This document shows positions 6,605 through 51,425 of a stretch of 64,000 nt of DNA, piece after piece. Both the position numbers and the translations under genes were made by a program. The stretch lies in the NCBI GenBank assembly GCA_030747175.1, contig JASLLE010000006.1, positions 1-64,000 of the forward strand. The letters are read 5' to 3'. The stretch comes from Dehalococcoidia bacterium (GTDB lineage Bacteria > Chloroflexota > Dehalococcoidia > Lucifugimonadales > Lucifugimonadaceae). The notes beneath the pieces are model-generated. The model ran no database searches. It was not told where the DNA came from and saw only the letters and a program-made list of their open reading frames with translations. How positions within the stretch are numbered: position 1 is the stretch's first letter; the number at the start of each line of letters is the position of its first letter.

Positions 6605-6815
6605 AGAACGTCTGGGCGTATCGCCTCACCCCGCGGGCGTATTGCCATACGCCCCTACAAAAGCGTCGACGCTGGATCACTCCCTTCTCCCAGCGGGAGA
6701 AGGTGCAGAGCCTGTCCTGAGCCCGACGAAGGAATGAGGGAGAAGTCGCTCAGCCCGAATCGATCAAAGGCGGCCGTAATTCCAACGCGTCCCCCTCTCC
6801 CGGTGGGAGGGGCCA
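6605..6815. repeat. Intergenic block of short palindromic repeats
   Basis: GGGCGTAT-TGCC-ATACGCCCCTACAA at 6635-6660; cttctcccagcgggagaag; cctgtcctgagcccgacgaagga; cccctctcccggtgggaggggc. Near-identical copies elsewhere in the window. Confidence 0.8.
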
Positions 6816-25488: not shown

Positions 25489-25692
25489 ATGATTTCGGTG
25501 ACGATTAACGGGAGCGAGACCGAATTGGACGGGCCCACCGGCCTGATCGAGTATCTCGAATCCAAAGACCTCGCCGAGCGCAAGGTCGCAGTGGCCGTCA
25601 ACGGGGTGATCGTTCGCCGTCCCGAGTACGATTCGATCGTCATCCAGGGGGGAGACCGGCTGGAGATCGTCCGACCCGCCGGTGGGGGGTAG
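25489..25692 (+). CDS. thiS: Sulfur carrier protein ThiS
   Basis: 67 aa; VAVAVNGVIVRRPEYDSIVIQGGDRLEIVRPAGGG, C-terminal Gly tail. Confidence 0.9.
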   Translation: MISVTINGSETELDGPTGLIEYLESKDLAERKVAVAVNGVIVRRPEYDSIVIQGGDRLEIVRPAGGG

Positions 25693-25720
25693 CCCCCGAC
25701 TGGGGGCAGCCGGCGTTATC

Positions 25721-26104
25721 TCGGAGGGCGATTGAACGAAAATCCCGTGGAGGACTCCCTCTCACTCGCCGCCCCGGCGGGAGACTCGGAGGGCGATTGA
25801 TTGAAAATCCCGTGGAGGACTCCCTCTCACTAGCCGCCCCGGCAGGAGACTCGGAGGGCGATTGACCCCCCCCGTGGAGGACTCCGTTTCGCTCGCCGCC
25901 CCGGCAGGAGACTCGGAGGGCGACTGAACGAAAATCCCGTGGAGGACTCCCTCTCGCTAGCCGCCCCGGCAGGAGACTCGGAAGGCGATTGAACGCAAAT
26001 CCCGTGGAGGACTCCGTTTCGTTAGCCGCCCCGGCAGGACACTCGGAAGGCGATTGAACGCAAATCCCGTGGAGGACTCCTCTCAATAGCCGCCCCGGCA
26101 GGGG
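25721..26104. repeat. Tandem repeat, about 6 copies of a 65-bp unit
   Basis: Units begin at 25721, 25786, 25851 (62 bp), 25913, 25978, 26043 (partial): tcggagggcgattgaacgaaaatcccgtggaggactccctctcactcgccgccccggcgggagac. Confidence 0.95.
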
Positions 26105-26190
26105 CTTTCATGCACCGCACTGGTTGGCGGCGGATCGAGCAGCTCTGCCATTACGCCCCGAATAATGCCCCGAATGGGGGCCGGCGGGGG

Positions 26191-26379
26191 CTAGAGGCTG
26201 CCCATCACCGCCGTCGCCATCACCGCCCACAACATTACGACCGAGATCACGAGTACCGGGAAGACAACCCGCTTGAGTGCGCGGTCTGAGTCATGTTGCT
26301 GCAACTGGCGATTCCTTTGGGGGTTTTGCGGTTGTGGGTGGGTCTGCGCCGCATCGAGACGGTAATCCCCGTCAGTCAT
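26191..26379 (-). CDS. Putative small single-TM membrane protein
   Basis: 62 aa; hydrophilic N-terminus then RVVFPVLVISVVMLWAVMATAVMGSL. Confidence 0.45.
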   Translation of the reverse strand: MTDGDYRLDAAQTHPQPQNPQRNRQLQQHDSDRALKRVVFPVLVISVVMLWAVMATAVMGSL

Positions 26380-44645: not shown

Positions 44646-47600
44646 TTACGCCCGCAATATCTCCCGCCGAGCAAGAATCCTCTCGGTGAGCGGCCGCATG
44701 CCCAGGTCACGGGCGATGGCGAGCGCTTCGTCCTGCAGCGCGATGGCTTTCTCGCGATCGCCGCCCCCCGAGGCACTCGCGTTTGCTGAGGTTCTCGAAG
44801 CATCATCCCGGTCCAAAAGCATCTCGGCGTATTCGGAGCAGGTCCGGGCCACCTCCGGGCGCATTCCGGCAGGGCGGATGACGTTGAGGGCCCGCTCGAA
44901 TGCCTGCGCGGCGGAGTCCCAGTCCTCCAGGGAGGCGTGAAGCAATCCACGCAACCGGTCCACCGAAATGTGCATGAAGCTGAACAGGACGATCGGCGGT
45001 ATCACGGACTCCAGCACGGCGAGTGATTCCGTCGCGGACTCCCTGTCGTGCCGAATCACCGCCCGGAAAGCGCGGCTGAACTCACCGGGGATTTCCAGCA
45101 GCAACATTCGTTCCGGGTGACGGTGCGGGATCCAATCCGCCGATCCGTTGAAATCGACCAGTGAATATGCCGCGATCGCCCTCAAAGACGAGGGCGCACC
45201 GGAAGAAGGGAGTCCTCTCTGGTTCGCGGCTTCATCCAACTCGGCCAGGCAAGCATGGAGAGATTGTTCGTCACCGGTCTGAATGGCTATGTAAGCGAGT
45301 GTTACCTGGGCAGACATCCACGACCCGCCTTCGCCGAACTGCGCCGTGTCCAGGACCATCAAAGCCGCATCGCGTGCCGAGATCCAATCCCCTTGATTTA
45401 CATGGATTTCTGCAACGCGTGCGTGCGCATGGCCCTGCCACCGAACGTCACGCCAACGGGTCGCGTATTTGACCGCCTCGCCGGCTAACTTCGCCGCCTC
45501 TTCGATCTCACCAATCTGCACGTGTGCCGTCGTCGTCCACTGATAGGCACGATACCGGGACACACTCGCCTCGGCATTTGCGGTTAGCGCAAGCGCCTGT
45601 TTACCGTACGGGATCCCCTGCTCGGGAAGCACGGCGCCCCCGTACACGTTGACGCGATTGGCCATCACCGATGAGAGCAGGATTTCGTCATCTTGCGCCA
45701 TAGCAATCCCCTCGGCGCGATCCAGCGCGTCAAGCGCGATATCTGTCTGGTTCGTCGAAAACCCGATCGCTAGCGCATAGTCGGAGAGCATGTATCCAAT
45801 CTGCTCGGAGCTCTCGTCCAATCCGGCGATAATTTGCTGGTACCTTTCGGTCATGGCAGTCGCCAGCCCGGAGTTGTGCGCGTCTTTGAGTCCGGCGGCG
45901 GCTGTCTCAAAATCACTCTGTTCCAGGTAGTAATCGATCGCCGCCGCCATTGCATCTATCGATTCCTGGATCCTGCCTACCGCTCCCCCGGCGCGGCTGG
46001 CGAGGAGCAAGAGTCGGGCATGGTCTGAATCGACCGGCCGGTCCGTCAGTCCCAGTGCGATATCGGCCCGTCGATAAGCATCGTGGTTGGCGTGAACCGA
46101 GAAAGCCGCCTGAGCCGCTACGATCGCGTAGTGCTCCGCTCGTTCTCCGCCCAGGACCGATTCTGCTTCCAGGAAGTGGGGCAGTAGTTCCGGCGCGTGG
46201 TCATCAGCGTCGTCACCGTACATTCGTTCCAGCACGCTCGCGATGTTGGCGTGTATCCGGACTCGTCGGGCAAGTGAAAGTTCGCTTGTGAGGGTTTCCT
46301 GGAACAGAGCATGGGTGAACTGGAAATGGCCGATCTCGTCCGATAACTCCTCAATCAGCTTGGCATCCAGCGCCTCATCGAGGACGTCCAATAACTGGCC
46401 CTCGGTAGTGTCCTCCGCCAGTTCCCTCAAGGCTGCCAGCGTGAAATCGCGACCGATCACGGCTGCCGTGGTGAAGATTTCGTTGGCCCGGTCGGACAGG
46501 CGGTCCAACCGGCGTCCTATGACCTCGCGAACGCCTTCCGGTATACGGACGGACCAGGTTGAACGGCCGGACACCTTCTCTTCGGCGAGTTCGCCCGACT
46601 GGACAAGGTCCCGAATGACCTCGGTGACGAAGAGAGGGTTTCCCTCTGTGTGGCGCTGGATCGTGGCCGATAGTTCGTACGGAGCGGAGAACCCGGCCGC
46701 AATTTCTACAAATCGGGCGATGTCCGCCTCGCTCAGCCCCCTCAGTAAAACGCGCTCGTACAGTCGCTCACGCGCCAGGTCACCCAGAGTCACGGTGAGG
46801 GGATGCCGACGGTTCAACTCCATGTCCCGGTATGTGCACAGCAGCAGGACTCGCGCCTGCCCCAGCTCGCGGGCGATGAACTCCAGGAAGGTGAGCGAGG
46901 GCTGATCCGACCAGTGGAGGTCGTCCAGGACGATCACGAGCGGCCGGGACTGAGAAGCCGCCCTCAGGAAACTGGTTATCGAATCAAATAGCCGGAACCG
47001 GGCACTCTCCGGATCATCCATCAGCGGCGGCGGCTGTAACTCCGGCATCCGGTCCTTCACGTCAGTCACGATCTCCGCGACGACGGACGCGCTGGATCCC
47101 ATCTGGCGGCGCAACTCGTCAGATTCGATATCCCGCACGTAGCTGCGAATCGCCTGCACCCAGGGCCAGTACGGCGGGGCACCTCCTCCCTCGTAACACC
47201 GTCCCCACAGCACTTGCGCACCCCTGAGGCCGGCGTAGGTTGTGAGTTCCTCGCAGGTCCGGGTTTTGCCGATACCCGGTTCACCTACCAGGGTGACCAG
47301 GCGGCCTCGTCCTCCAAGCACGTCTTCCAGTGCGGCTTTGAGCTGGTCCATCTCAGCCTGTCGTCCGACGAATACGCCGCCGGCAAGGGATTCCAGTGAG
47401 TTGGCTTCGCGCTCAACAGTCTCGCCTCGTGCTGTCAGGTCGATGGCCTCAAGTGCGTTGAACACGTCCTGCGCGCTGTTCGGCCTCTCTGATGGGTCTT
47501 TGGCGAGCATGCGCATGATGAGCGCTTCTAGCGGTCTCGGACACGTCCCGTTGTGCCAGGTTGGAGCGACCGGCGGTGTATTGATGTGCTGGCCGATGAT

Positions 47601-48677
47601 GGCGACCTCTTCATCTCCCAGGAAGGGAGGACGGCCTGTCACCATTTCGTAAAGCATTGCTCCCAGCGAATACAGGTCGGCCCGGGGAGTGATGTCCCCG
47701 CCGGTTGCCTGCTCGGGCGGCATGTAGGAGACGGTTCCGATCATCATCGCTTCTCGGGTGAGGCGTGATCGATCGGTCAGCATTGCAAGCCCGAAGTCGC
47801 CGATCTTGGCCGTGCCGTCCTCCGTCAGCCAGACGTTCCCGGGCTTAAGGTCACGGTGGACGATGCCGCGGTCGTGTGCGAACGCCAGCCCCTCGCAGAC
47901 CGCCTTGCCGATCTCGATGGTGCGTTCAAGAGGGAGACCGCCGGCCGGGCGGCCACGGGGAACCGCCCCGACAACGTTATCGCGCGTCGGCCCGTCCGTA
48001 GGGGCAGGCCCCTGTGCCTGCCCTCCGCGGTCCGCTGCATCTAACAACGCCTCAACATCCCCTCCACCCATGAGCTCCGTCACCATGTAGGGCGAACCAT
48101 CGTCCTCCTGGCCCAGATCGAGCACCGCAACGATGTTGGGATGCACACCCAGCCGCCCCATCGCTTGGGCCTCGCGGGAGATGCGTTCTTTCGACGTCTG
48201 GTCGAAGCCCTCGGTCTTGATGAGGGCGAAAGCCACTTCTCTGTCCAGCAGGGTGTCGTGGGCCTGGTAGACGCGCTTCTTGCCGCCTTCGCCGAGAAAC
48301 TTGCTGACCTGGTAGCGGTCGTTAGCGAACGACGAAGGGATTAGATCTCTACCGTGCCCTTCCTTCCCCGGAAGGATCGAAGAGCCGGTCGTGGGCGTAT
48401 TGCCATACGCCCCTAAAACGGTGGATGTGGACGAGCCTTCTCCCTCACCCTTCCTCGGAAGGGCAGGCTCCCGGCCTTCTCCAGCCGGAAGAGGGGATTC
48501 CACAGCCAGCCAGCGCTCGGCGGCTTCCAGGTACGCGACCGCTTCAGAGTTGTTTGCATCAACCGCGAGTACGTTTTGCGACAGAATCCGGACGGACGTC
48601 CAGTCATCCGCCTCTTCTGCCGCATCTATACGATCAAGCAGCCGCTCGATCCGCCTCTGCGCACGTTCGCTCGTCAT
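44646..48677 (-). CDS. Large Ser/Thr protein kinase - AAA ATPase - TPR-like regulator (ATG at 48677)
   Basis: Kinase FLGEGGKKRVYQAHD, HRDLKPGNVWL, GDFGLA; ATPase GEPGIGKTRTCEELT and VIVLDDLHWSD; C-terminal helical repeats. Confidence 0.92.
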   Translation of the reverse strand: MTSERAQRRIERLLDRIDAAEEADDWTSVRILSQNVLAVDANNSEAVAYLEAAERWLAVESPLPAGEGREPALPRKGEGEGSSTSTVLGAYGNTPTTGSSILPGKEGHGRDLIPSSFANDRYQVSKFLGEGGKKRVYQAHDTLLDREVAFALIKTEGFDQTSKERISREAQAMGRLGVHPNIVAVLDLGQEDDGSPYMVTELMGGGDVEALLDAADRGGQAQGPAPTDGPTRDNVVGAVPRGRPAGGLPLERTIEIGKAVCEGLAFAHDRGIVHRDLKPGNVWLTEDGTAKIGDFGLAMLTDRSRLTREAMMIGTVSYMPPEQATGGDITPRADLYSLGAMLYEMVTGRPPFLGDEEVAIIGQHINTPPVAPTWHNGTCPRPLEALIMRMLAKDPSERPNSAQDVFNALEAIDLTARGETVEREANSLESLAGGVFVGRQAEMDQLKAALEDVLGGRGRLVTLVGEPGIGKTRTCEELTTYAGLRGAQVLWGRCYEGGGAPPYWPWVQAIRSYVRDIESDELRRQMGSSASVVAEIVTDVKDRMPELQPPPLMDDPESARFRLFDSITSFLRAASQSRPLVIVLDDLHWSDQPSLTFLEFIARELGQARVLLLCTYRDMELNRRHPLTVTLGDLARERLYERVLLRGLSEADIARFVEIAAGFSAPYELSATIQRHTEGNPLFVTEVIRDLVQSGELAEEKVSGRSTWSVRIPEGVREVIGRRLDRLSDRANEIFTTAAVIGRDFTLAALRELAEDTTEGQLLDVLDEALDAKLIEELSDEIGHFQFTHALFQETLTSELSLARRVRIHANIASVLERMYGDDADDHAPELLPHFLEAESVLGGERAEHYAIVAAQAAFSVHANHDAYRRADIALGLTDRPVDSDHARLLLLASRAGGAVGRIQESIDAMAAAIDYYLEQSDFETAAAGLKDAHNSGLATAMTERYQQIIAGLDESSEQIGYMLSDYALAIGFSTNQTDIALDALDRAEGIAMAQDDEILLSSVMANRVNVYGGAVLPEQGIPYGKQALALTANAEASVSRYRAYQWTTTAHVQIGEIEEAAKLAGEAVKYATRWRDVRWQGHAHARVAEIHVNQGDWISARDAALMVLDTAQFGEGGSWMSAQVTLAYIAIQTGDEQSLHACLAELDEAANQRGLPSSGAPSSLRAIAAYSLVDFNGSADWIPHRHPERMLLLEIPGEFSRAFRAVIRHDRESATESLAVLESVIPPIVLFSFMHISVDRLRGLLHASLEDWDSAAQAFERALNVIRPAGMRPEVARTCSEYAEMLLDRDDASRTSANASASGGGDREKAIALQDEALAIARDLGMRPLTERILARREILRA
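47947..48026. repeat. Two palindromic repeats inside the kinase-domain coding sequence
   Basis: gggcggccacggggaaccgccccgac (47947-47972) and GTAGGGGCAGGC-CCCTGT-GCCTGCCC (47998-48023). Confidence 0.8.
48340..48503. repeat. Cluster of repeats inside kinase gene, encoding a low-complexity linker
   Basis: ccttccccggaaggatcg; GGGCGTATTGCCATACGCCCCT (48393-48414, identical to 6635-6656); cttctccctcacccttcctcggaagggcaggctccc...agagggg, similar to intergenic 51212-51278. Confidence 0.82.
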
Positions 48678-51211: not shown

Positions 51212-51280
51212 GCTTCTCCCTCACCCTTCCGATGAACGGAAGGGCAGGCTCCCCGTCCTCTCCCGTTGGGAGAGGGGACG
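51212..51280. repeat. Intergenic palindromic repeat block
   Basis: cttctccctcacccttccgatgaacggaagggcaggctccccgtcctctcccgttgggagagggg. Confidence 0.75.
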
Positions 51281-51425
51281 AAACCACAGCGCCTCAAGAT
51301 AAAAGACCCGCGTCCCGGGGCTCTCGAAGGACCGGAGTCCGGGAGTCCACATACACTATGCGCGTCTGGCTTTTCACGCCGGGAGAAGAGAATCGTCAGA
51401 TTTCAGCCTGCAAAGAGGAGTCCGC

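Follow-up and report, generated by a model that had tools for sequence, protein, structure and literature searches.

A kinase loop probably filled by an inverted pair of GTAG-footed REP hairpins in a Dehalococcoidia genome

The kinase gene and its expanded loop

The window, the whole 64,000-nt stretch of DNA analysed here, which comes from an uncultured marine Dehalococcoidia bacterium of SAR202 type, carries a multidomain Ser/Thr kinase gene (Table 1; Pfam PF00069, 7e-44, and PF13191, 3e-34), whose start codon was set by comparison with its paralogs. Its kinase domain scored 150.6 bits against PF00069, well above the curated cut-off of 31.7, and the catalytic motifs are unbroken (beta3 Lys motif FALIKT, HRDLKPGN and DFG). 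Mycobacterium tuberculosis PknB, the top PDB match by sequence and structure, shares the fold of the kinase domain; it has about 10 residues at the site between alphaD and alphaE where the window kinase has a 37-residue loop, translated as DAADRGGQAQGPAPTDGPTRDNVVGAVPRGRPAGGLP. An AlphaFold model built from 70 sequences (pLDDT 86, pTM 0.86) was used in place of an earlier one built from 14 close sequences (pLDDT 53). In the model, residues 110–128 have pLDDT below 50 and are flanked by helices at 94–102 and 136–155; the model thus keeps the kinase fold intact and predicts the insert to be disordered, as a loop on the surface. Elsewhere, a short additional segment (DASRTSANASASGGG) lies near the C-terminus of the kinase gene at 44760–44804; it is absent from paralog C99, and other paralogs differ there. 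The window also contains a tandem array of 65-bp units at 25655–26122.

Within the loop lie two copies of a 26-nt unit, here called type A, with a stem of 8 bp and a loop of 6 nt. These dimensions fall within the limits of the GTAG superfamily of REPs, defined as hairpins of 20–40 nt with a stem of 5–13 bp, a loop of 2–20 and an unpaired GTAG at one foot. Hairpin 1, which reads GTAGGGGCAGGCCCCTGTGCCTGCCC on the plus strand, has this unpaired GTAG in the window as well as in paralogs C22, C88 and C99. Hairpin 2 lies in the opposite orientation, and its foot is GTCG in the window and GTAG in C22 and C113. The window pair therefore consists, as a REPIN or BIME does, of two inverted hairpins, with the GTAG-type feet facing each other across a spacer that the type A paralogs also have.

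The preliminary description, drawn from the letters alone, had placed two palindromes in an open frame between alphaD and alphaE and proposed structure prediction to see whether the insert is a surface loop. Both palindromes were recovered as the hairpins of Table 1, the translation bore out the open frame with HRDLKPGN and DFG unbroken, and the predicted structure agrees with a disordered surface loop. Comparison with homologs also upheld the site of insertion, since 89 kinases have a loop of 8–9 residues there and the segment is not common to homologs. The insertion is real, but its net size is 28 residues (37 against an ancestral 9) rather than the 33 first given.

Table 1 Features of the window and repeat families found in the kinase loops.
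Feature	Position	Strand	Basis or remark
Ser/Thr kinase gene, 1343 aa: kinase, AAA_16 ATPase and TPR-like C-terminal part	44646..48677	-	ORF and Pfam
PknB-like kinase domain	47469..48314	-	Pfam PF00069, residues 125-406
Expanded alphaD-alphaE loop, 37 codons (111 nt) against 8-9 in homologs	47931..48041	-	Survey of 110 kinases; AlphaFold model
REP hairpin 2, type A, inverted relative to hairpin 1	47947..47972	-	
Spacer of 25 nt between the inverted hairpins	47973..47997	-	Paralog BLAST
REP hairpin 1, type A, GTAG foot intact, GTAGGGGC AGGC CCCTGT GCCT GCCC	47998..48023	+	
In-frame family D repeat in the linker preceding the kinase domain, VLGAYGNTP	48393..48419	-	Exact 23-nt copy at intergenic 6635-6657
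In-frame family B repeat in the same linker, SPLPAGEGREPALPRKGEGE	48438..48497	-	Intergenic repeat matches, best E 2e-15
Intergenic copies, families D and B	6630..6718	.	Repeat matches
Intergenic copies, families B and E	51212..51335	.	Repeat matches
Family A			Kinase loops of the window, C22, C88, C99 and C113
Family B			Peptide SPLPAGEGEGEGE
Family C			Peptide PSPxEGEGLGVGR
Family D			GTAGGGGCGTATGGCAATACGCCC with inverted partner, VGAYGNTP..GGASPAPT
Family E			Peptide GPSRASGHG
Family F			Peptide EPPPESGGG

A stretch of about 130 nt recurs in four paralogs (E 1e-36 to 6e-28), and the stem variants found among type A units (AGGC/GCCT, GACC/GGTC and AACC/GGTT) all preserve pairing. A 22-nt palindrome pattern matched once in the window without mismatch, compared with 0.7 matches expected at up to three mismatches in window shuffles. 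Genome-wide, this pattern occurs in five places, and its reversed control in none. A looser pattern, GTAGGGGC...GCCCC, showed no excess over control and was discarded. The folding energy of the window loop was weakly better than that of shuffles (z -1.0), the weakness being due to its very high GC content, and energy did not discriminate type A loops; the hairpin call thus rests on recurrence in the genome and on paired stem changes.

Loop lengths and repeat families across the kinases

The corresponding loop was extracted from 110 homologous kinases of relatives and named genomes. Nearly all are from Chloroflexota (SAR202, Dehalococcoidia), and a small number bear the label Deltaproteobacteria. 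The loop is short in 89 of the 110 (24 or 27 nt, 8–9 residues) and long in the remaining 21 (102–284 nt). Twenty of these 21 long loops, each of at least 34 codons, belong to the genus of the window (four genomes: this one, G001, G004 and G005). Of the 21 long loops, 20 have a length that is a multiple of three and 19 are free of stops. The short state also occurs inside the genus, in paralog C86 of this genome and in several kinases of G004; in the protein tree, the long-loop rows form one cluster, which includes two short-loop kinases of G004. The one long loop outside the genus, a 44-residue segment in a family-level relative (L062 of G029), had neither a repeat match nor an excess of hairpins; it is possibly a decayed or unrelated insertion and was left out of the REP cases. 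Each genome has around ten paralogs with differing loops, and three repeat-bearing paralogs (C88, C113 and L081) are broken. The kinase loop of C113 (L020:4809-5034) holds a 57-bp tandem array with four copies of the type A spacer and hairpin 2, adjoined by a frameshift.

At least six palindromic repeat families, unrelated to one another, make up the inserts; they are labelled A–F in this analysis and were assigned by DNA, and most of them are also dispersed between genes. Many loops contain two or more repeats, and kinases grouped in the tree carry different families: C22 (A) groups with C143 (F+C), and C99 (A) with C77 (B+D). When kinase genes were masked, 35.9% of insert bases matched repeats elsewhere, compared with 1.4% and 6.6% of adjoining coding DNA and 0.9% of shuffled inserts. 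Loop queries, from which the families themselves were defined, matched 91 places in a 464-kb sample of the 3.19-Mb genome, and the stronger matches were mostly intergenic. Family A had no copy in the kinase-masked 464-kb sample. Genome-wide searches located type A in the five paralogs and on C120 only, plus a variant on C134; this amounts to about ten copies, with five loci in kinases and the remainder on C120 and C134.

The loop palindromes had been likened to the window's intergenic repeats. Type A has no second copy in the window, where the intergenic repeats belong to families B, D and E; two of these, B and D, are also present in the N-terminal linker of the same gene. In the genome search, the palindromes proved not to be unique, type A being present in four other paralogs and beside a transposase gene, with a variant at a further intergenic site.

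In-frame repeats are not confined to the alphaD–alphaE loop. Twelve of the expanded-loop kinases also have repeat matches in the linker that precedes the kinase domain, and in the window gene these belong to B and D. In the C143 kinase (L123, about 26350–26375), ten in-frame residues, VPSTGSGQAQ, match a dispersed repeat in the beta7–beta8 loop just before DFG. The gene for Fpg (formamidopyrimidine-DNA glycosylase; C88:25515-26414, L117:5515-6414) has about 30 additional in-frame residues of family E type near residues 67–99; aligned with one short relative and G005, this stretch differs in G005, and it is absent in G002, G006 and G007. A terminase-like ORF (C77:1246-2781, L109) has two in-frame family E matches between its ATPase part and its C-terminal part. 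Many apparent in-gene repeats at ORF starts are probably misplaced starts or spurious ORFs.

Origin of the inserts

The genome encodes a candidate mover. An ORF on C120 is a relative of the REP-associated tyrosine transposases (RAYTs), with a Pfam Y1_Tnp match of 27.1 bits (cut-off 23) and a match to NCBIfam REP_Tyr_transpos at E 3.6e-20 and 72.3 bits, the latter under the curated cut-off of 80. The gene is flanked on both sides by GTAGGGGCGACCCCCTGTGGTCGCCC (GTAG hairpins), has type A hairpins upstream of it and is thus a RAYT gene bordered by the same kind of REP. A Y1_Tnp match was present in one of eight genomes of the genus, this one, and the type A pattern was likewise found in this one only. 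A role of GTAG in RAYT recognition has been published (PMC8266576). From this arrangement we infer that type A was moved by the RAYT encoded on C120, a tyrosine HUH single-strand nuclease; families B, C, E and F showed no GTAG foot, and we identified no mover for them.

Taken together, it is very likely that the extra segment arose when an inverted pair of GTAG-footed REP hairpins, a dimer resembling a REPIN or BIME, inserted in frame into the short alphaD–alphaE loop of a PknB-like kinase. The RAYT on C120 would move type A hairpins, and the loop would tolerate any insert that is GC-rich, lacks stops and has a length that is a multiple of three. After a first repeat, further repeats or clusters could land in the loop, replace it or be copied between paralogs, and the inserted peptide would most likely be a neutral flexible spacer. 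In other species, REP families usually reach high copy numbers, from 20 up to thousands of units. The low copy number of type A, with half of the copies inside kinases, counts against the REP explanation.

Across four type A paralogs, the insert had a dS of 0.21 and a dN of 0.10 (dN/dS about 0.5), compared with a dS of 0.96 and 0.83 in the kinase flanks (dN/dS 0.04–0.06). Hairpin constraint could lower insert dS somewhat. Because insert dS lies far below flank dS, the inserts probably reached these paralogs after the paralogs had diverged, either by separate insertion or by short-tract copying. A single type A origin in the kinase tree was not rejected (AU p 0.23), so separate insertion in each paralog is unproven; free trees split type A, and the L081 row is unreliable (frameshift).

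A strong contender, which we rate at somewhat under an even chance, is that all type A loops go back to a single ancestral insertion, which was then copied from paralog to paralog by gene conversion or recombination, the RAYT not having acted on the kinases separately. The spacer and order common to type A loops favour it, as do the unrejected single type A clade and the low insert dS beside higher flank dS, which is the expected trace of short-tract conversion. It is opposed by the split of type A in the free trees and by sister kinases with unrelated families (A, B+D and F+C), which require several entries.

It is unlikely that the repeat-encoded loop is functional, tuning substrate docking, regulation or partner choice in each paralog with the repeats as a diversifying source. 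The differing loops of around ten paralogs per genome, the frame preserved in nearly all inserts and an insert dN/dS of about 0.5 rather than 1 would fit such a role. However, insert dN is twice flank dN, and pairing constraint together with few sites can mimic a dN/dS below 1; the loop is predicted to be disordered, repeats are also present in Fpg and linkers, and C88, C113 and L081 bear repeats yet are broken. As for the in-frame exaptation proposed earlier, the data point to tolerated insertion, with no sign of function for the peptide. We are similarly doubtful of the broader proposal that a family of signalling kinases is diversified as unrelated REP families are captured and replaced again and again in this loop, the loop being kept as a landing site and the hairpins serving as a source of new protein loops.

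Mis-assembly could have joined repeats into a gene of this metagenome-derived genome, which is in 154 contigs and has frameshifts in two paralogs. This is very improbable given type A in five paralogs on five contigs, other repeats at the same codon position in three further assemblies, and frames that are open across both flanks. Least credible of all is chance low-complexity growth of a GC-rich loop with incidental palindromes, for although genome GC is 62% and folding z-scores of type A loops are weak, chance is contradicted by exact genome-wide recurrence with a reversed control of zero, by 36% repeat-matched bases against 0.9% in shuffles, and by the paired stem changes.

Significance and comparison with known systems

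The kinases form a natural series of about twenty related genes: one 27-nt loop has stayed empty in some of them and has taken up repeats of several families in others. Such a series makes it possible to follow the entry of hairpins into coding DNA, the maintenance of frame and the pace of repeat turnover, and to see whether a disordered loop derived from repeats ever gains function. Since a single genome also has a matching RAYT, the question of mobility is testable in vitro.

The name REP denotes an extragenic repeat. REPs of the GTAG and CGTC superfamilies have also been described inside genes, often as dimers, where they encode 20–30 residues (up to 82), and the recB genes of two Xanthomonas species carry different REPs at nearly the same position; the GTAG superfamily is reported from Chloroflexi (Di Nocera et al. 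2013, PMC3733652). Our literature search, mostly outside subscription journals, found no paper on such repeats in SAR202. The window pair resembles the GTAG-tagged REPs in coding regions of that study in being GTAG-footed, paired and in frame. The present case differs in that several unrelated families fill one loop in 20 kinases of a single paralog family, while 89 homologs show an empty state of fixed length.

REPIN/RAYT (TnpA-REP) systems and the present case have in common an inverted hairpin pair, the GTAG foot and, within one genome, a RAYT gene flanked by hairpins of that type. Here, in contrast, copy number is low, half of the copies are intragenic, the two hairpins of the kinase dimer point their feet towards one another, and mobilisation is putative.

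The preliminary description had compared the insert with the Rickettsia palindromic elements (RPEs). The comparison holds for palindromic repeats read in frame within working genes, but the closest known counterpart is the GTAG-REP/RAYT system rather than the RPE itself: the phylum is another one, and here there is a GTAG foot and a RAYT. RPE-4 and RPE-6 of R. conorii have been placed in the CGTC superfamily, without a dedicated transposase (PMC3733652). In-frame REP pairs are thus already known, from the older work on Rickettsia RPEs and from Di Nocera et al. 2013; the novelty here is that one loop has been colonised repeatedly among the members of a paralog family.
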